A DNA stretch of 64,000 nucleotides from Nitrospirales bacterium (GTDB lineage Bacteria > Nitrospirota > Nitrospiria > Nitrospirales > UBA8639). The position numbers and the translations under genes were made by a program. Of this stretch, positions 53,305 to 63,973 are shown in pieces; positions within the stretch are counted from its first letter, which is position 1, and every line of letters begins with the position of its first letter. The DNA lies in contig JAJDVY010000017.1 in NCBI GenBank assembly GCA_022825885.1, positions 1 to 64,000 on the forward strand, read 5' to 3'. Under the pieces are notes generated by a model. The model had not been told where the DNA came from, did not search any database, and was given only the letters and a program-made list of their open reading frames with translations.

Positions 53305-53985
53305 ATGAGTTCCGCGACCGTACACATTGCGCCTTCGATTCTCTCCGCCGATTTCGCACACTTGGCCGATGAAATCGCCGCGGTGGAAGCCGCGGGAGCC
53401 GACCTGCTGCACGTGGACGTGATGGACGGGCATTTCGTGCCGAACCTCACGATCGGCCCCCCCATTGTCGAATCGTTGCGAAAAGTCACGGCCCTGCCCC
53501 TGGACGTTCATCTCATGGTGACAAATCCGGACGCCGTCATTCCCGACTTTGCCCAGGCCGGAGCCAACTATCTCACGGTGCACACGGAAACCTGTCCCCA
53601 TCTGCACCGTACCATCCAGCGCATCAAAGAGCATGAGGTCAAGGCCGGGGTGACGCTCAACCCGTCGACCTCCTTGAGCGCCCTCGAAGAAGTCGTCGCG
53701 GACGTGGACCTGGTGCTGATCATGTCGGTCAATCCCGGATTCGGGGGACAGACCTTTATCCCCGCTTGTTTGGATAAACTACGGCGAGCCAGGCAACTCA
53801 TCGACCGGACCGGCAGCCGGGCCCTGCTCGAAGTGGACGGCGGTATCAAAATCGAGAACGCCGGAGACGTCCTCCAAGCCGGGGCCAACGTCCTGGTCGC
53901 GGGGTCGGCGATTTTTCGCAGTCCGAATTACACCGACACGATTGCCGCGTTCCGCACCGTTGCCCGAGAACTCCAACCGCGTTAA
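53305..53985 (+). CDS. rpe: Ribulose-phosphate 3-epimerase
   Basis: 226 residues, normal size. It interconverts ribulose 5-phosphate and xylulose 5-phosphate. [64 protein letters not shown] and [12 protein letters not shown] match the TIM-barrel family. It is four bases upstream of the chosen pheS start. Confidence 0.96.
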
Positions 53986-53989
53986 ATCC

Positions 53990-55552
53990 ATGCAGACCAC
54001 GGCTGTGTATGACAGTTTGCATCCTCTCGAAATCAACCTGCTGGCGGCTTTCAGCCAATCCGCGGATAAGCCGGTCTCCGATTCGTCTTTGCAGGAACTC
54101 TCCCAACTAGAGCCGTCACAAGTCAGCATGGCCCTGGGGTGGCTTCAAGCCAAACAGCTCGTCAGCATCCATTCCGAAATCGTCACGGCCTGGGTGGGGT
54201 TGACGGAAGTCGGACACCGGTATGTGGCTGACGGGTCTCCACCCGAGTGGATCATCAGGACGTGCAAACAAGGGGCCGGAGAGGGACGATCGTTCACGGT
54301 AAAAGAATTGCAGAACCTGAACGCGTTCCCTCCCACGGATCTCAGTCGAGCCTTCGGTCTGCTCAAAAAAGAGGGCGCCATCGCCTTGGGAGCCGGAGGC
54401 CGCATAGAACCCACGGAGACGCCGAGTCCCACGGTCGAGAAGCTGCGCGCGCTCCTGCACGAGTTGAAGAAGAACCGCCAGGAACTGCTCTCGTTTTCGC
54501 CGGAGCAACAAACCCTTTTGCGCCAATACGCAGTCAAACGGGGAAGCGCCCAGGAACCGTTTCGGGTCGAGGAACGGATTCACCGCGAATATACCCTGAC
54601 CGAAACCGGAAAGGCGGTGGCGGAACGTTGCCATGCCGGCGCCGTCGAAGAAGTTTCCCAACTGACGTCCGACATGCTCAAGGACGGCTCGTGGCGCAAC
54701 AAGCGTTTCCGGAAATACACCATTACCCTGAGACCCCCGAGGGTCGCGCCCGGACGGCGGCATCCGTACAGGGAGTTTCTGGACCTGGTCAAACACAAAT
54801 TGGTCGGCATGGGCTTTCAGGAGATGCGCGGCCCGCTGGTCGAGACCGAATTCTGGAACATGGATGCCCTGTTCATGCCTCAATTCCATCCGGCACGGGC
54901 CATTCACGACGTCTACTTCGTGAAAACCCCGACCCATGCGGAGACGATCGCCGAACCGTTTCTTTCTCAAGTGGCCGAGACCCATGAGACCGGCGGGGCC
55001 ACCGGTTCCAGCGGGTGGGGGTACCGCTATGACAAGGAACGGGCCCGTCGCCTGATTCTGCGCAGCCAGGGCACGGCCGTGTCGGCTCGCACCCTGGCGT
55101 CGAATCCCCTGATCCCGGGCAAATATTTTTCCATGGCCCGGTGTTTTCGCTACGACCAGGTCGATGCCACCCATGCCACGGACTTCTTTCAGATCGAAGG
55201 GATCGTGCTGGGCGAAGAGATCAATTTTCGCACGCTGCTGGGCCTGCTCACCATCTTTGCCAAGGAAATGGCACAGGCGCAGGAGAGCAAATTTTTCCCG
55301 GCCTATTTTCCTTTTACGGAACCGTCCGTGGAATTGCACGTCCGGCATCCGAAACTCGGGTGGATGGAACTGGGCGGCGCAGGCTTGTTCCGGCCGGAAG
55401 TCACCCAACCCCTGGGGGTCACGGTACCGGTGATCGCGTGGGGTTTGGGTCTGGATCGCATGGCCATGGTGGCCTTGGGCATTCATGATATTCGTGAACT
55501 CTTTTCCGTGGACCTGGAAAAAGTGCGCACCTTGCGCGGACGGTTTGCATAA
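53990..55552 (+). CDS. pheS: Phenylalanyl-tRNA synthetase alpha subunit, archaeal/eukaryotic type
   Basis: About 520 residues from the ATG at 53990, against roughly 330-350 in most bacteria. The extra N-terminal half carries winged-helix-type modules (LGWLQAKQLVSI...WVGLTEVGHRYV, LSRAFGLLKKEGAIAL), as in archaeal and eukaryotic cytosolic enzymes. The class II core is also archaeal in style: FQEMRGPLVETEFWNMDALFMPQFHPARAIHDVY, RSQGTAVSARTL, FRYDQVDATHATDFFQIEG and GLGLDRMAMVALGIHDIRELF. pheT follows after a family C repeat. It is the only PheRS gene set visible here. Confidence 0.92.
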   Translation: MQTTAVYDSLHPLEINLLAAFSQSADKPVSDSSLQELSQLEPSQVSMALGWLQAKQLVSIHSEIVTAWVGLTEVGHRYVADGSPPEWIIRTCKQGAGEGRSFTVKELQNLNAFPPTDLSRAFGLLKKEGAIALGAGGRIEPTETPSPTVEKLRALLHELKKNRQELLSFSPEQQTLLRQYAVKRGSAQEPFRVEERIHREYTLTETGKAVAERCHAGAVEEVSQLTSDMLKDGSWRNKRFRKYTITLRPPRVAPGRRHPYREFLDLVKHKLVGMGFQEMRGPLVETEFWNMDALFMPQFHPARAIHDVYFVKTPTHAETIAEPFLSQVAETHETGGATGSSGWGYRYDKERARRLILRSQGTAVSARTLASNPLIPGKYFSMARCFRYDQVDATHATDFFQIEGIVLGEEINFRTLLGLLTIFAKEMAQAQESKFFPAYFPFTEPSVELHVRHPKLGWMELGGAGLFRPEVTQPLGVTVPVIAWGLGLDRMAMVALGIHDIRELFSVDLEKVRTLRGRFA

Positions 55553-55556
55553 AATA

Positions 55557-55610
55557 TTGCGGATTGCTGATTTCTGATTTGGAAATCCGCAATCCAAAAT
55601 TGAAAATCCT
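55557..55610. repeat. Dispersed repeat, family C, copy 3
   Basis: ATTGCGGATTGCTGATTTC then TGATTTGGAAATCCGCAATC and CAAAATTGAAAATCC. GCGGATT and AATCCGC form the arms of a hairpin between pheS and pheT. Confidence 0.65.
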
Positions 55611-55613
55611 CTG

Positions 55614-57311
55614 ATGCCCACCATTTCCTTTTTTCAGAAAGACCTGGAAGATCTGCTCGGTCGAACGGCTCCGCCTGAACAACTGGAGTCGTGGCTGCCG
55701 CTGGTCAAAGGGGAATTGAAGGACGTGACCCAGGCCACCGGCGAAATCCGGGTTGAGCTCCAGGACAGCAACCGGCCTGACTTGTGGAGCGTGGAAGGGA
55801 TCGCCCGACAGATTCGGATCAAATTACAAGAGGCGCCGCCGGCCTATCCTTTTCTGCACACCAAGACCAAGCCCAAACGGCGCATCCTGGTGGCCGAAGG
55901 ACTTGAGCAGGTGCGACCGTACGTGGCGGCCTGTACGGCCACGGGATACACCGTCACCGAGGAAAGCCTGGCGCAACTCATTCAGGCACAGGAGAAACTT
56001 GCCGACCTGTATGGGCATAAACGAAAAACCGTCTCGATCGGGTTGTACCGGCTCCCCAGTATTCACTTCCCCGTCACCTATGGATTGGTGAAACCCACGG
56101 AAGCCCGATTCACGCCCCTTGGCTTTTCCGAAAAACTCACTCTTCAGGAAATCCTGACGGTTCATTCCAAGGGCATGGAGTACGGCTCTATTCTGGCCAA
56201 TCAGCCCCTGCTGCCGTTGCTGTGGGATACGGAAGGCCAGATCTTATCCTTTCCCCCCATCATCAACAGTCAGGACATCGGCCAAGTGCATGCCGGCGAT
56301 TCAGCCCTGTTGGTCGAAGTCACGGGCACGGATATGCGAATGGTGCTCCTGACCCTCAATATTTTTGCCACGAACCTGGCCGACCGGGGGGCCGTCATCG
56401 ATCCTATCGAGGTGCAATATCCGTATGACACGGGGTGGGGCAAATCGATCAGAACCCCTTGCGACATCAGCACCGTGCATAAAATTCCGCTGAAAGCCAT
56501 TGAATCCGCCCTCGGGCTCCCCATCGACGCCGAATTGGTGCAACAAACCTTGCGGGCGTATGGGTATGAAGTGAAAGCGAGTCGCCATACCCTCGCGGTG
56601 CGGTTACCGCATTATCGCAGCGATCTCATGCACCCGGTGGACGTGGCGGAAGACGTGGCGATCAGTCGCGGGTACGACTCGTTCGTTCCGGTGATGCCGG
56701 CCCAATTCACCGTGGGTTCACTATCGGCTCTGGAAATGACGTCCGACTACATTCGTGAACACATGATCGGGCAGGGATTTCAGGAAATTTTTTCCAATAT
56801 TCTGTTGTCTCATGAGGAACTCGTTGAACGGATGAGACTCCCCGCGGACGAGCACGTCGTGGAAGTGGACAACGTCATGTCGCAAAGCTTCTCCTGTCTC
56901 CGGTCCTGGATTGTGCCGTCGCTGTTACGCGTCGAGACGGCCTCGCCTCGCGCGTTTTACCCGCACCGGCTTTTCGAAATCGGCGAAGTCGCGATTCCCG
57001 ATTCAAGCCGGGAACTCGGATCGCGCACCGCCATTCGACTCGGGATCGTCATTGCCCATCCCCATGCGAACTTTTCCGAAGTGCATACCTGCCTGGACGT
57101 TCTCATGTTTTATCTGGTGAAGGACTACGAACTCGAACCCCTGAGTCACGGCTCCTTCCTCGACGGCCGAGCGGGCACCATTCTTTCCCAGGGACAACCC
57201 GTCGGGTTGATCGGCGAACTCCATCCGGAAGTCTTGGAGAAATGGGGCATCTCCGTCCCCATCTCGGTGGTCGAACTCGACGTGGACTGGTTGTGTGGCG
57301 ACGGCTCGTAA
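55614..57311 (+). CDS. pheT: Phenylalanyl-tRNA synthetase beta subunit, archaeal/eukaryotic type
   Basis: 565 residues, against about 800 in bacterial-type enzymes: the tRNA-binding OB and anticodon-binding end domains are absent, as in archaea. The start MPTISFFQKDLEDLLGR, VELQDSNRPDLWSVEGIARQIR, TVHSKGMEYGSIL, the core HPVDVAEDVAISRGYDSFVP and the C-terminal GQPVGLIGELHPEVLEKWGI are typical of the archaeal form. Its last 120 bases have a degenerate second copy at 61187-61295. Confidence 0.92.
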   Translation: MPTISFFQKDLEDLLGRTAPPEQLESWLPLVKGELKDVTQATGEIRVELQDSNRPDLWSVEGIARQIRIKLQEAPPAYPFLHTKTKPKRRILVAEGLEQVRPYVAACTATGYTVTEESLAQLIQAQEKLADLYGHKRKTVSIGLYRLPSIHFPVTYGLVKPTEARFTPLGFSEKLTLQEILTVHSKGMEYGSILANQPLLPLLWDTEGQILSFPPIINSQDIGQVHAGDSALLVEVTGTDMRMVLLTLNIFATNLADRGAVIDPIEVQYPYDTGWGKSIRTPCDISTVHKIPLKAIESALGLPIDAELVQQTLRAYGYEVKASRHTLAVRLPHYRSDLMHPVDVAEDVAISRGYDSFVPVMPAQFTVGSLSALEMTSDYIREHMIGQGFQEIFSNILLSHEELVERMRLPADEHVVEVDNVMSQSFSCLRSWIVPSLLRVETASPRAFYPHRLFEIGEVAIPDSSRELGSRTAIRLGIVIAHPHANFSEVHTCLDVLMFYLVKDYELEPLSHGSFLDGRAGTILSQGQPVGLIGELHPEVLEKWGISVPISVVELDVDWLCGDGS

Positions 57312-57341
57312 ACGAAAAACGCAACTTTTCTGGAGACATTT

Positions 57342-59135
57342 ATGCCCATCCAACGTTATTCAGTAAACCAGCATCCTATCGAGACACTACTAACATGGAT
57401 CAAATCCGGTGAGATTGCCATTCCCGAGATTCAGCGTCCTTTCGTATGGAACGGAGCAAAGGTGCGCGATTTCATTGACTCGCTCTATTGCGGCTATCCG
57501 GTAGGGTATCTTATCGCTTGGCGGAACCCGGACATCCGCCTGAAGGACGGCACTCAATCAACGGGTAAGCGCGTCTTGATCGACGGACAGCAGCGCGTGA
57601 CCGCACTTCTGGCGGCATTACTGGGTCAGCAAATCGTTGGCAAAGATTATAAGAGGAAATGCATTACAATAGCATTTCATCCCGGCGAAGAAAAATTTGA
57701 GGTGACCAACCCCGCCATACGGCGGGACCGAGGATGGATCGCCGACATCGCTAGTGTCTTTGCTCCCGACACTCGAATGCGTCAACTCGTAGACAAGTAT
57801 TGCGAGGTTAATCCAGAGGCGAATAAGTATGATATTGACGAACATCTGGACCGCCTTCGCGGTATTCGTAACAACTCCCTTGGCCTTATCGAACTGAACG
57901 CTGACTTGGACGTGGAGACTGTGGCGGAGATATTCGTTCGCATCAACTCTCAGGGCGTCCCACTGAACGCGGCTGATTTCGCCATGTCCAAGATGGCTGC
58001 CAGCGAGAAATACAATGGACACCAACTACGCAAGGGTATCGACTACTTCTGCCATCTTGCCATTGCACCGGAAGCACACGGCGACTTGGCCAAGGACGAT
58101 GAGTTCGTCAATACGAAATATTTCCGCGCTATGGAGTGGCTGAAGCACGAAAAGGAAGACCTCTACGATCCTTCCTATACCGACATGCTCCGGGTGGCTT
58201 TCACCTCGGAGTTCAAGCGCGGGCGATTGGAGGACTTGGTCGCTCTGCTTTCTGGTCGCAATTTCGAGACGCGCGCATTTGAGGAAGCCATCGCGGAGAA
58301 CTCCTTTCACAGGCTTGAAGAAGCGATTTTACGCTATATGAACGAGACGGATTTCAAACACTTCATCATGATTCTGCGCTCGGCGGGATTTGTAGACGTT
58401 TCAATGATCAGGTCACAGAATACCGTCAATTTTGCCTATATCCTGTATTTGACGTTACGCGCGAAGGGTACGAAGCCCGCTGAGATCGAGACGCTGGTGC
58501 GGCGATGGTTCGTGATGTCCGTCCTGACAGGGAGATACACTGGTTCACCGGAAACCGCCTTTGGCCTCGATATCCGTAACATTGAGGAACAGAACGCGTC
58601 TGCATATCTAGACACCATGGAACGGGCGGAGCTTTCGGATGCTTTCTGGGACGTTGGCCTTCCACAGCAGATGGATACGCCGGTCGCCAGCAGCCCCTAC
58701 TTCAATGTCTTTCTGGCAAGCCAAGTAAAGGCAAACGACAAGGGGTTCCTTTCACGTGATCATACTGTGCAAAACCTTCTTGAGGGTCTCTCACATATTC
58801 ACCATGTCTTCCCGCGTGCGTATCTCAAGAAGAATGGCCTCTCGCGGAACCGCTACAATCAGATTGCGAACTATGTCGTCATGCAGAGCGAGATCAACAT
58901 CGCAATCCGCGACGATCCACCGGAAACCTACTTTCAAGCACTATGGAAGCAATGTGAAGGCGGAAAACCTCAATTTGGTGGGATCACAGACGCCGACCAA
59001 TTACGCGCCAATCTCGCGGCGCATTGCATCCCTCAAGGAATGGAAGAGGCAAGCATTCACGACTATGATAAGTTTCTCCAAGAACGTAGAGCCCTGATGG
59101 CCGCCAAAATTCGAGACTACTACAGGGCGTTATGA
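57342..59135 (+). CDS. DUF262 protein with C-terminal HNH-type domain (GmrSD-like)
   Basis: 597 residues. The N-terminal DUF262 domain has [44 protein letters not shown] and [16 protein letters not shown], including the DGQQR motif. The C-terminal part has [16 protein letters not shown] followed by [17 protein letters not shown], as in the DUF1524-like HNH nuclease of GmrD. A fused DUF262-HNH protein is the layout of type IV (modification-dependent) restriction systems such as GmrSD. It starts 30 bases after pheT, in the segment flanked by the two copies of the pheT 3' end, and precedes a toxin-antitoxin pair. Confidence 0.82.
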
Positions 59136-59187
59136 GCGACCTGTTACGAAAGCTGGCGCTGTCAAAAGAAAGGAGGGGGGGCACACC

Positions 59188-59412
59188 ATGAACCATCCCA
59201 GAATTGCCGATCTGACGGTCGCTGAATTCAAGGAACTCCTTCGCGAAACAATGACGCAGTCGTTCGCCGAGGCGCTCGGTGACCCTGATGAAGGCTTAGA
59301 ACTACGTGAGGATTTTGCCGAAGAGCTACGACGTTCCCTCGCCGATGTCAGGACGGAGGGACAAACGTCGAGCCTGACGGACGTCGTAGGCAGACTCGAG
59401 TCGAACGAATGA
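59188..59412 (+). CDS. Putative antitoxin of a RelBE/ParDE-type pair
   Basis: 74 residues, acidic. AAAGGAGG lies upstream of the ATG. The sequence (IADLTVAEFKELLRETMTQSFAEALGDPDEGLELREDF) shows an N-terminal region without a clear DNA-binding motif and a negatively charged middle. Its stop overlaps the start of the toxin gene by four bases (ATGA), which together with the RelE-like partner identifies it as the antitoxin. Confidence 0.75.
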   Translation: MNHPRIADLTVAEFKELLRETMTQSFAEALGDPDEGLELREDFAEELRRSLADVRTEGQTSSLTDVVGRLESNE

Positions 59413-59681
59413 CCTATGACGTTGTACTGACCCCAACAGCAGAAGCCGACCTCCGACGCTTGGACTCAGCGATTGCGCGCCGCGTGATCGAGAAGCTTCA
59501 GTGGCTGGCTGACAAAATCGAGACGATCAGGCTTGAGACATTGACGGGCTCGTGGTCAGGTGTGTTCAAACTCAGAATCGGGCATTACCGTGTGCTCTAC
59601 ACCCGTGAAGCAGCAAAGCAAAAGATTGTCGTTCACTTCATTAGACATCGGCGTGACGTGTACAAGAAAGTGGGGGATTGA
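59409..59681 (+). CDS. RelE/ParE-family toxin
   Basis: 90 residues. YDVVLTPTAEADLRRLDSAIARRVIEKLQWLAD, the middle LTGSWSGVFKLRIGHYRVLYTRE and the end VVHFIRHRRDVYKK follow the RelE/ParE fold, with the conserved KLRIGxYRVLY strand. It may cut mRNA on the ribosome or poison gyrase; sequence alone does not decide. It is coupled to the antitoxin gene. Confidence 0.88.
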   Translation: MTYDVVLTPTAEADLRRLDSAIARRVIEKLQWLADKIETIRLETLTGSWSGVFKLRIGHYRVLYTREAAKQKIVVHFIRHRRDVYKKVGD

Positions 59682-59977
59682 CGCCGTTAATATGCACCGC
59701 TGCAACGAACGTGGGACTTCGATGCCCGGACGAAAAAGCAACATGACTAGCGCTGTATTTCTCCTCTGCGTAGGGTCACGTCTCCGCAACTTTTCCGGAA
59801 CAAGGTAGTACCCCGCCACCCCGATTCCATTCACCCGTAGCCATGGAAGCCGGCCTTGTGCAGGGGTTCCTACGTTCAGCCGGTTGTTTCCCATAGCGCC
59901 ACGGCGCTACAATTTGCACCACTGGGGTTCGTCGTCGGACTGTCCTTTTTTCTCCACAATCACCCGCGGGAGTTTTT

Positions 59978-61186
59978 ATGCTGGAAGCCGGCATTGCCAT
60001 CATCAGTCTTGTGATCGGCGTCATCATCGGCTGGTGGGGCCGGTCAACGTCATCCCCGGATGAAAAAATCGCCCGCCTGGAAACGGAATTGCAGGAGGCG
60101 AAGGCCTCTGAAGTCCAAGCGAGAACCTCTTTGGCGCATCTGCAAACCCAGTTTGAAACGGAAAAGAAACGCCTCGAGGAAATTCGCGGCACCATGGAGA
60201 ATTCCTTCAAGGCCATGGCCGCCGACATCGCCCGGGACAATTCCCAAACGTTTCTCCAGCAGGCCGGCGAGCAGTTCAAGTCTCTCAAGGAAAGTTCGGA
60301 AAAGGATCTGGATGAAAAGAAGAAACTCATCGACAAAAGCCTATCCGGGATGAACGACAAACTGGAATTGATTCAGAAGCAATCGACGGAACTGAAGACC
60401 AGCATCGACACCAGCCGGCAAACCACCGAAGCCCTCAGCGAACATACCGCCCGCCTGCGGGAAATTCTGTCCTCCTCACAAAAACGCGGCCAATGGGGCG
60501 AGCGCATGGTCGAGGACATCCTGCAATTTGTCGGCCTCCTGGAAACAGTGAATTACACCAGGCAGGACCAAGTCGAATCCGGCCAGCGCCCCGATTACAC
60601 CTTCCTTCTCCCCCAGGAAAAGAAGTTGAACATGGACGTGAAATTTCCCTTAGACCACTATGAACGCTATCTCTGTGCGCAAGACGAGGAAAGCCGCACC
60701 CAGGCGAAAAAGACCTTTTTGCAGCAACTTCGCAACCACGTCAAAACCGTGAGCGGACGCGAATATATCAATCCCGCCGAGGGGACGCTGGAGTACGTGA
60801 TGCTGTTTATTCCCAATGAATCCATTTATGGGTTTATCAATCGCGAGGACAGCGAACTGATCGATTTCGCCCTGGGAAACCGCGTACTCTTGTGTTCACC
60901 TTTGACCCTGTATGCAGTGCTCTCACTGGTCCACCAGGCCACGCGTAATTTCATCATGAACGAGCGTGCCTCGGAGGTGATGAATTTGGTGGGGCAATTC
61001 AGAGATCAATGGAAAAAATACATCGACCAAATGGACAAACTGGGGCGGCGGATTGAAGGACTGAGCGGCGATTATCGCGACCTGGTCACCACCCGAACCC
61101 GCAGCTTGGAGCGGCCTCTCGACAAGATCGAGAATATTTCCCTGGCGGGCTCGGAAGACCATCCTGAAGTGCTGGAACAGCAATGA
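59978..61186 (+). CDS. rmuC: DNA recombination protein RmuC
   Basis: 402 residues. An N-terminal membrane anchor (AGIAIISLVIGVIIGWWG) precedes a coiled coil (residues 25-130) and the RmuC nuclease-like domain: KRGQWGERMVEDILQFVGLLE, YTRQDQVESGQRPDYTFLLP, NMDVKFPLDHYERYL and LFIPNESIYGFI. RmuC limits short inverted-repeat rearrangement in E. coli. The gene ends exactly where the degenerate pheT 3' copy begins. The 296 bases upstream hold no gene. Confidence 0.93.
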   Translation: MLEAGIAIISLVIGVIIGWWGRSTSSPDEKIARLETELQEAKASEVQARTSLAHLQTQFETEKKRLEEIRGTMENSFKAMAADIARDNSQTFLQQAGEQFKSLKESSEKDLDEKKKLIDKSLSGMNDKLELIQKQSTELKTSIDTSRQTTEALSEHTARLREILSSSQKRGQWGERMVEDILQFVGLLETVNYTRQDQVESGQRPDYTFLLPQEKKLNMDVKFPLDHYERYLCAQDEESRTQAKKTFLQQLRNHVKTVSGREYINPAEGTLEYVMLFIPNESIYGFINREDSELIDFALGNRVLLCSPLTLYAVLSLVHQATRNFIMNERASEVMNLVGQFRDQWKKYIDQMDKLGRRIEGLSGDYRDLVTTRTRSLERPLDKIENISLAGSEDHPEVLEQQ

Positions 61187-61295
61187 GGGGCAGCCTGTCG
61201 GGTCGATCGGAGCACTCCATCCCGAAGTCCTGGAAAATTGATCCATCTCGGTCTTCGAGTTCGATCTAGAATGGTTATGTGCCGAAAGTCCGTAA
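61187..61295 (+). pseudogene. Degenerate second copy of the pheT 3' end
   Basis: Directly after the rmuC stop, 109 bases align with the end of pheT (57191-57311). In the pheT frame they read GQPVGSIGALHPEVLEN, then an in-frame TGA in place of the Trp codon, a 12-base deletion, and SISVFEFDLEWLCAESP before a stop at the matching position. About two thirds of the aligned residues are identical to pheT. It has no start and cannot be functional. Confidence 0.85.
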
Positions 61296-61403: not shown

Positions 61404-62369
61404 ATGGATGGATTGTGGACAAACAGAAGAGCATCAAAAGACCCTTTCGAAGATGCACTGAGCAGGTACTGGTCCTCTGCATCGGCAATTGATATTGCGG
61501 TTGCATTCTTTACAGATGAGGCAATCGTTGAGGATCTGATTTCAGAAAATGGCTGCCACGTCAGAATGGTCGTGAGATTGGGATTTCCGACCAAACCGCC
61601 TGCGCTTCGTGCATTAATCAAAAAACGAGATGTAGAATTAAGGTACTATTCTGATTCGGCTTTTCATCCTAAGCTCTATATTTTTGATGACAAAATCGCC
61701 CTATTGGGCTCTGCCAACTTAACCCAAAAGGCACTCCGCTCAAACCAGGAAATAATGATCTCCATTAAATCAGAAGATCCAAGATTTGGGGAACTTACAG
61801 GGCTTTTTTCTGATTATTGGGATAATTCTCAAGTCCTTACTACGGAATCCCTTAAGGCTTATGAAAAAATCTATAAAGAATATGGAAGAGCTATTGATGA
61901 TATCAATCGCATTGATGAGGCAGTTCAATCCAAAATAGGTAAAACCGGTTTTCCTAACATAGATAGGGACAAGCCAACAGAATCAAGAACGAATATCCCG
62001 ACTGCGATGCAAGAACTGGTACACATCGATCTCAGAGGGAATATGGTATCTGGTACCCCACCCCAACCAGACTACCGCAGAATGCCGAAGGGGAAAATAG
62101 CGAGGAAGATCGAGCTTGATTCGGTTTGTATCGGATCGGTTTGTAGACTCAATGACGGACTCTATAGAGTGACGCTTCGTAAGAAGAAGACGTTTAAGCA
62201 GCTTAAGGCTCTAAAGTTTCAAATCACTCTTGCTGAGTATAAAGGTGATTATGAAAAGATCCTCAGAATGAGATGCGATTCTCAAGAAGAAGCTGGCCAG
62301 AATTTTGAAAAGTATTTGCGATCTTTTCCTGATTTTGATTTACAGACTTTGCACTTCAGTTCAGTTTAG
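61404..62369 (+). CDS. Phospholipase D-family protein with one HKD motif
   Basis: 321 residues. One PLD catalytic motif is present: FHPKLYIFDDKIALLGSANLTQKAL (H-x-K with downstream GSxN), preceded by AIDIAVAFFTDEAIVEDLI. Single-motif members such as Nuc act as homodimers and are often nucleases or restriction-related. The C-terminal 120 residues (GKIARKIELDSVCIGSVCRLNDGLYRVTLRKKKTFKQL) show no family I know. The gene is AT-rich compared with the neighbours. Possible roles are DNA cleavage in defence or phosphodiester chemistry; undecided. Confidence 0.75.
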   Translation: MDGLWTNRRASKDPFEDALSRYWSSASAIDIAVAFFTDEAIVEDLISENGCHVRMVVRLGFPTKPPALRALIKKRDVELRYYSDSAFHPKLYIFDDKIALLGSANLTQKALRSNQEIMISIKSEDPRFGELTGLFSDYWDNSQVLTTESLKAYEKIYKEYGRAIDDINRIDEAVQSKIGKTGFPNIDRDKPTESRTNIPTAMQELVHIDLRGNMVSGTPPQPDYRRMPKGKIARKIELDSVCIGSVCRLNDGLYRVTLRKKKTFKQLKALKFQITLAEYKGDYEKILRMRCDSQEEAGQNFEKYLRSFPDFDLQTLHFSSV

Positions 62370-62691: not shown

Positions 62692-62964
62692 ATGAGGATC
62701 AGGCACAAGGGGCTCCGGGCGCTGCACGAGCGAGACGACGCTATGCGGCTGCCCACCGGTCTCGTGCCACGGCTTCGGCGTATCCTGTTCCGACTGCAAG
62801 AGGCGACGCATCCGGGAAGCGCCGATGCGCCGGGTTTCCGGCTGCATCCCCTGAAGGGCGACCGCGCAGGTCAGTGGAGCGTCCGCGTCTCCGGCAACTG
62901 GCGCGTGGTGTTCCGCTTCGAGGGCGACGAGGCCGTGGACGTGGACCTGATCGACTACCACTGA
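62692..62964 (+). CDS. higB: HigB/RelE-family toxin
   Basis: 90 residues. IRHKGLRALHERDDAMRLPTGL, GFRLHPLKGDRAGQWSVRVSGNWRVVFRFE and DVDLIDYH match the HigB family, with the LHPLKGDRAGxWSVRVSGNWRVVF strand being its hallmark. It would cleave ribosome-bound mRNA. The toxin gene precedes the antitoxin, as in higBA. Confidence 0.92.
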   Translation: MRIRHKGLRALHERDDAMRLPTGLVPRLRRILFRLQEATHPGSADAPGFRLHPLKGDRAGQWSVRVSGNWRVVFRFEGDEAVDVDLIDYH

Positions 62965-62983
62965 CCGCAGAGGAGTGCTGACC

Positions 62984-63298
62984 ATGAACGACATTGCAAA
63001 CGATCGCGTCGGCCCTATGGCCAACCCGCCGCACCTGGGCGAACTCATCCGCGAGAGCATGGACGATGTTGGCTGGAACGTGACCGAGACGGCTACGCGT
63101 CTCGGCTGCGAGCGCGGAACGCTGTCGCGCCTGCTGAATGGCAAGGCGGGTGTGTCGGCGAACATGGCGTTGGCGTTGGAGGATATCGGCTGGGGCACCG
63201 CCGAGCACTGGATGCGGATGCAGGCGAGCTACGAGCTTGCGCTGGCACGCCGGGACCGAACCGCAGCCGAACGGCGCGCTGGCGCGCTACACGTATGA
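62984..63298 (+). CDS. higA: HigA-type antitoxin
   Basis: 104 residues from the ATG at 62984, eight bases after GAGGAG; a GTG at 62975 overlaps that site. The helix-turn-helix is NVTETATRLGCERGTLSRLLNGKAGVSANMALALEDIG, in the XRE/HigA family (PPHLGELIRESMDDVGW at the start is typical). It neutralises the toxin and represses the operon. Confidence 0.92.
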   Translation: MNDIANDRVGPMANPPHLGELIRESMDDVGWNVTETATRLGCERGTLSRLLNGKAGVSANMALALEDIGWGTAEHWMRMQASYELALARRDRTAAERRAGALHV

Positions 63299-63619: not shown

Positions 63620-63973
63620 TTAGGCCGCGGCCTTTGCCAGGTCCGTCAGGGATTTAAACCCTTCAGGATCGTGAATGGCCATTTCCGACAGCATCTTCCG
63701 GTTCAAGGTGATGTTGGCTTTGGTCAACTCATGGATAAACCGGCTGTAGGATAACCCGTGCGCTTTGACCGCAGCCGAGATCCTGGCAATCCAGAGTCTC
63801 CGGAAATCTCTTTTCCGATGTCGCCGGCCGATGTACGCGTAGACTTGGCCCTTATCGACTGATTCCGTCGCCGCCCGAAACAGTTTGCTTCTGCCCCCAT
63901 ATTGCCCCTTGGCTAATTTCAGCCGTTTTTTTCTTCGGCGACGGGTTTGAGGGCCTCCTTTGACACGTGGCAT
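63620..63973 (-). CDS. rplT: 50S ribosomal protein L20
   Basis: 117 residues, full length. It binds 23S rRNA early in large-subunit assembly. MPRVKGGPQTRRRRKKRLKLAKGQYGGRSKLFR, AYIGRRHRKRDFRRLWIARI and KANITLNRKMLSEMAI are characteristic. AAGGAG lies nine bases upstream of the ATG. Its 3' end faces the accessory zone; rpmI and infC would be expected to the right. Confidence 0.97.
   Translation of the reverse strand: MPRVKGGPQTRRRRKKRLKLAKGQYGGRSKLFRAATESVDKGQVYAYIGRRHRKRDFRRLWIARISAAVKAHGLSYSRFIHELTKANITLNRKMLSEMAIHDPEGFKSLTDLAKAAA

Follow-up and report, generated by a model that had tools for sequence, protein, structure and literature searches.

Displaced gene ends and stacked accessory genes point to one-sided recombination between pheT and rplT in Nitrospirales

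We analyzed a 64,000-nt stretch of a Nitrospirales genome (the window) in which a decayed second copy of the pheT 3' end lies among accessory genes, between the intact pheT and the convergent gene rplT. We interpret the gap between these two genes as a hotspot of gene exchange that works without an integrase, and in which one-sided recombination, anchored by homology, would have stacked different alleles in the window. We give this interpretation a probability of roughly 0.7. Among the mechanisms put forward when the sequence was first read on its own (hereafter, the sequence-only reading), recombination between related genomes, which had been listed there as an alternative, is the one that our comparisons support best.

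The displaced pheT end and the genes around it

The occupied gap in the window is 6.3 kb long, and accessory genes continue past the displaced copy up to rplT. The features are as follows, with the evidence for each in parentheses.

55614..57311, + strand: pheT, archaeal-type PheRS beta, 565 aa, intact, left flank of the hotspot (Pfam tRNA_synthFbeta and B5; NCBIfam TIGR00471 over cut-off)
57191..57311, + strand: intact 3' end of pheT, to which the displaced copy corresponds (alignment)
57342..59135, + strand: DUF262/GmrSD_N protein, 597 aa, candidate type IV-like restriction nuclease, block 1 (Pfam E 2.9e-29; PADLOC HEC-05)
59188..59412, + strand: small putative antitoxin, 74 aa, block 1 (operon position before ParE; 81% homologue at the same place in G009)
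59409..59681, + strand: ParE/RelE-superfamily toxin, block 1 (Pfam ParE_toxin E 1.1e-10)
59723..59753, no strand: junction of block 1 (G009-like) with block 2 (the rmuC block) (blastn limits; alignment)
59978..61186, + strand: rmuC, block 2 (Pfam RmuC E 1e-68; G003, G004, and G005 have 89-93% homologues between pheT and rplT)
61187..61197, no strand: junction microhomology GGGGCAGCCTG, found both in the 3' flank of rmuC and at codons 527-530 of pheT (blastn limits; alignment)
61187..61295, + strand: displaced, decayed pheT 3' end, read as a recombination scar (alignment; direct-repeat scan; genome protein search)
61404..62369, + strand: PLD-family nuclease, block 3 (Pfam PLDc_2 E 4e-18)
62692..62964, + strand: HigB-like toxin, block 3 (Pfam E 1.6e-12)
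62975..63298, + strand: HigA antitoxin, block 3 (NCBIfam TIGR02607 over cut-off)
63620..63973, - strand: rplT (L20), convergent, right flank of the hotspot (Pfam E 4.1e-45)

Pairwise alignment of 57191-57311 with 61187-61295 yields 83 identical bases out of 109 (76%). Relative to the last 121 nt of pheT, the copy has a 12-nt deletion and a single in-frame TGA, with the position of the stop unchanged. Both the existence of a degenerate copy at this place and the preservation of its frame apart from these two lesions had been claimed from the sequence alone, and both are confirmed. The pair forms the longest direct repeat within 55.5-64 kb. In a whole-genome protein search, the copy was the sole other PheT match in the 2.38-Mb genome (E 2.8e-6), and a query with the C-terminal part of PheT matched it at E 2.8e-8, so that the resemblance is not due to chance. 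Furthermore, the copy sits in the middle of a 171-kb contig and differs from the intact end by 24%, which excludes an assembly echo. Its divergence lies inside the variation of the window's genus.

The exact start of the copy is informative. The genomes G003, G004, and G005 have a short 3' flank with a hairpin after rmuC. After the rmuC stop, G005 reads TGA GGGACAGCCTG CTCG and the window reads TGA GGGGCAGCCTG TCGGGTCGATCGG; the pheT of relatives at the corresponding point reads GGGACAACCCG TCGGG..ATCGG. The first ~11 nt of the copy (GGGGCAGCCTG) are closer to the native rmuC 3' flank (G005: GGGACAGCCTG) than to pheT, which places the true junction near 61187-61198. The rmuC flank and pheT have about 12 nearly identical bases in common, within which the sequence changes over from the flank to pheT. 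That the copy abuts the rmuC stop is thus explained by chance similarity at the joint. This refines the sequence-only reading, in which the copy began directly after this stop. The similarity of a few bases (AGGGACAGCCTG versus AGGGACAACCCG) applies to the joint in the window only, with G005 as a stand-in for the parent, whose rmuC 3' flank would continue with GGG(A/G)CAGCCTGC and then the hairpin.

The cargo is a stack of at least three blocks, since there is, in addition to the joint of the copy, a second joint at 59723-59753, between a G009-type GmrSD and toxin-antitoxin (TA) block and the rmuC block. The sequence-only reading had described a 3.9-kb cargo segment between the two copies. The genes are there, but a further block with the PLD nuclease and HigBA lies beyond the copy, which extends the gap to its full length. 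The same reading had called the first gene DUF262/HNH. DUF262, which is GmrSD_N, stands, but HNH is represented only by an HHVFP-like motif visible in the sequence, and no profile for a C-terminal HNH/GmrSD_C domain matched the 57342-59135 protein at E<=0.001. Its RelBE-like pair and rmuC were correctly recognized, the pair being a ParE/RelE-superfamily toxin with a small antitoxin ORF upstream (59188..59412, without a Pfam match) and RmuC being assigned by Pfam. A search of 235 further genomes of the order gave no homologue of the PLD nuclease (61404-62369) at E<=1e-15, and so this gene is probably a recent arrival.

Blocks found in the window recur in other arrangements. The GmrSD-TA block also adjoins pheT in G009, and the rmuC block comes directly after pheT in G003 and G004 (about 20 nt past the pheT stop in G003) and lies further right in G005. 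The pheT-adjacent GmrSD gene of G009 (L040) has a large internal deletion that joins residues 1-41 to about 532-597, and the antitoxin and ParE matches there are full length. Between rmuC and rplT, G005 (L032:4733-4840) has a piece that matches the window's antitoxin gene at 64% over 36 residues. G003 and G009 have shorter DNA matches to that gene, and the order of the blocks is permuted relative to the window. A distant rmuC (24-29% identity) is found elsewhere in eight other members of the genus and is absent from the window's own genome (G000), G003, G004, and G005. The gap-type and distant forms look mutually exclusive, and G011 retains a gap-type remnant. PheS and PheT of the window (53942-57311) are of archaeal type, with TIGR00471 and PRK04172 over cut-off and the bacterial pheT model far below; the other Nitrospirales searched have PheS/PheT homologues of equal length.

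Empty sites and recurrent scars across the order

Our comparison covered 110 distinct pheT-rplT loci of the order Nitrospirales. The window's genus is known from metagenome-assembled genomes, with Nitrospira sp. bin75, SB0662_bin_26, SB0677_bin_15, and RHO3_bin_20 among the named relatives. In 72 of the 110 loci, pheT and rplT are convergent with a spacer of <200 bp, that is, an empty site. The sequence-only reading had pointed to this interval in related genomes, and empty sites do exist there at the level of the order. The spacer is larger or the gap unresolved in the other 38 loci, where the cargo is mostly unrelated. Every member of the window's genus with a resolved gap carries 1.5-6.3 kb of cargo, and none has an empty site. 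The genes in the gap vary from genome to genome and are often restriction, toxin-antitoxin, or Abi-like genes. For example, G010 has a NotI-like nuclease with a DNA methylase and HigBA; G006, DUF4276 together with an AAA ATPase similar to MAD3; G011, Fic; G012, a DUF5615 protein of the PIN-like kind; G146, Rhs proteins with DUF4279; and G035, cytochromes with a histidine kinase.

No tyrosine or serine integrase was present among the ~39 proteins scanned, which came from the longer ORFs and were mainly the cargo and flanks of larger gaps. Across whole genomes of the genus, tyrosine-recombinase matches lie elsewhere, and none on a contig with pheT is closer to it than about 66 kb. The absence of a visible integrase gene, as first remarked for the window, thus extends to the occupied intervals scanned. 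With the same flanking core genes, unrelated and fast-changing cargo, and no integrase found in the gap, the interval fits an integrase-less hotspot on these three points.

When all pheT and rplT ends were compared with 99 kb of occupied intervals, displaced gene ends were found at exactly five loci. These are remnants of pheT in the window, G035, and L136 (the same genome as G105), and of rplT in G012 and G122. All five are in the orientation of the gene and each has a true 3' terminus. In G035, the remnant, the spacer, and rplT line up in unchanged order with the G150 empty site (356 bp, 89.9% identity). Its displaced end bears the ancestral spacer and stop of empty-site relatives; its present pheT end does not, ending instead with LLS and a stop followed by different downstream sequence, which is common to G098 (the coding end also to G107). 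The sequence-only reading had proposed that a displaced end might match an empty site better than the present end, and this relative bears it out. On the other flank, pheT, the spacer, and an rplT remnant (the last ~53 codons) of G122 match 452 bp of the L133 empty site at 88%, and the full rplT comes after 3 kb of cargo. The rplT scars begin at codons ~48 and ~65. In L136, the remnant is interrupted by a run of N, and the displaced end bears the post-stop sequence seen after the present pheT of G035 and G098, which indicates two successive events.

The three pheT remnants are about 95-121 nt long and start at codons about 527-533, within about 20 nt of each other, in two families. These starts are more clustered than expected from random joints. 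In blastn comparisons, the best match of a remnant was never the intact gene of its own genome, and the "own" and "best other" matches differ by a few bases only. We disregarded a ranking by gap-excluded identity for the window's copy because it was inflated by gappy alignments. In G035 (L049:9800-9876), the joint to the displaced pheT end is marked by a transposase C-terminal stump (FYNRHRLHQNLGYLSPLEF), which we take to be from an IS3-like element.

Affinities of the two pheT ends and alternative explanations

The two ends in the window have different affinities. The upstream part of pheT is nearest to G003, G005, G009, and G012 (91, 91, 90, and 90% identity), and the last 121 nt are nearest to G006 (90%). 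The present end departs from the genus majority at six sites; of these, the copy agrees with the majority at four and with the present end at one. This pattern would fit an end that has been replaced in the window, but the displaced end could equally have come with the right-hand partner. A tree of the 121 nt and the AU test gave no significant placement of either the copy or the present end. A sharp breakpoint, as a crossover core would leave, was absent from pheT, where divergence climbs by degrees across the final 60-120 nt. In close pairs, pheT is more divergent at its 3' end than upstream, including pairs in which both sites are empty (-0.031 versus -0.051), so weaker constraint can account for part of this rise. 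When occupied and empty pairs were compared for recombination, the difference was weak.

An argument can be made for site-specific insertion, in which an element attaches in the pheT 3' end, supplies a replacement end, and later loses its integrase. Replacement of a gene end is typical of site-specific integrative elements, and the three pheT remnants do start at neighboring codons. Nevertheless, we regard this explanation as unlikely. The scan of cargo and flanking proteins contained no integrase and the genus has its integrase matches elsewhere; the two ends are 76% alike, and there is no identical long core at both. The start of the window's copy is accounted for by similarity to the rmuC flank, and remnant starts vary by lineage and by flank. 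Because junction points differ and scars are found on both flanks, with mirror scars in rplT, an integrase site in pheT is unlikely. The original proposal that a segment entered the 3' end of pheT and stranded the old end thus survives in part: the collinearity of G035 with G150 argues for it, but the missing integrase, the varying junctions, and the mirror scars in rplT argue against a dedicated mobile element.

Explanations that dispense with foreign ends or invoke insertion sequences fare slightly worse. The copy is in the same orientation as pheT and 4 kb downstream, as expected if the pheT end had been duplicated locally in tandem and later modified by insertions and deletions within one lineage. 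Yet it sides with the genus majority at most of the diagnostic sites and with the present end at only one, and in G035 it is the displaced end that has the ancestral spacer and stop, which makes such a history doubtful. We attach a similarly small weight to the idea that insertion sequences made the joints and later decayed. The stump exactly at the G035 joint and a transposase with an rve domain in L134 are in its favor, but the joint in the window has no transposase trace, only a short similarity. Finally, the 24% divergence of the copy equals the level between species, and it might in principle have been the end of another, distantly related pheT paralogue with no connection to any insertion, an outcome that the sequence-only reading had named as fatal to its proposal. 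We consider this virtually excluded, as there are empty sites, none of the order's resolved genomes has a second pheT, and the copy falls inside genus variation. Second pheT matches in G234 and G141 were at contig ends and were dismissed as evidence.

Proposed mechanism and relation to known systems

In the one-sided recombination that we favor, DNA from a relative would recombine through homology in one flanking gene only, either pheT or rplT, and the other end would join illegitimately at a few similar bases. Alternatively, a circularized fragment may integrate by a single crossover. If the non-homologous joint fell upstream of the end of the recipient gene, the old end would stay behind as a short remnant and the gene would acquire the incoming end. 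For the window, we infer that two alleles were joined at a short similarity just past the rmuC stop, one with pheT-GmrSD-TA-rmuC and the other contributing its pheT end along with PLD-HigBA-rplT, which would have stacked both cargos and left 61187-61295 as a scar; the route of entry, the recipient partner, and the order of events all belong to this inferred part. The postulated allele pheT-PLD-HigBA-rplT was absent from the genomes searched, and the two parents of the window were not seen together. One joint in homologous sequence would be consistent with the chimeric gene ends. In addition, short remnants would survive preferentially since longer repeats recombine away, which may explain why the three pheT remnants are all of similar, short length. 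Uptake of DNA in the genus is plausible given that comEC is found in 13 of 14 members.

The hotspot has counterparts in other bacteria. Integrase-less hotspots have been described in which exchange occurs by double homologous recombination at flanking core genes and leaves no trace (Oliveira et al. 2017, PMC5635113). The pheT-rplT gap resembles them in its variable cargo between the same core genes, its high turnover, the lack of any integrase found, and the presumed sufficiency of flank homology. However, that model is free of scars, whereas events in the pheT-rplT gap are one-sided and leave remnants of gene ends. Homology-facilitated illegitimate recombination has been proposed for the T6SS effector/immunity arrays of Vibrio cholerae (Kirchberger et al. 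2017, PMC5361080). There too, homology anchors one side, old 3' ends and genes are shifted downstream, and modules are stacked; in the pheT-rplT gap, by contrast, the anchor is a housekeeping gene, the cargo is unrelated, and scars occur at both convergent flanks. In Escherichia coli, gene-end duplications of 109-950 bp followed conjugation (Amarir-Bouhram et al. 2011, PMC3240628). As in our case, foreign DNA is flanked by a duplicated gene end, although the E. coli example is a laboratory construct produced by a single crossover with a circle. The pheT-rplT scars are thus a new, well-documented case of an already known kind of process. We see little reason to favor something as yet undescribed, namely small integrase-free cassettes that enter preferentially at the 3' ends of pheT and rplT, carry their own copy of a housekeeping gene end, and build ordered stacks with the newest beside the anchor gene.

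Displaced gene ends can be read as oriented scars of one-sided recombination. Under this interpretation, such scars show how defense and toxin-antitoxin genes would build up at a fixed spot in uncultured bacteria without the enzyme of a mobile element. With five scars on both flanks, together with empty sites, the stacking model is testable through sequence search alone.
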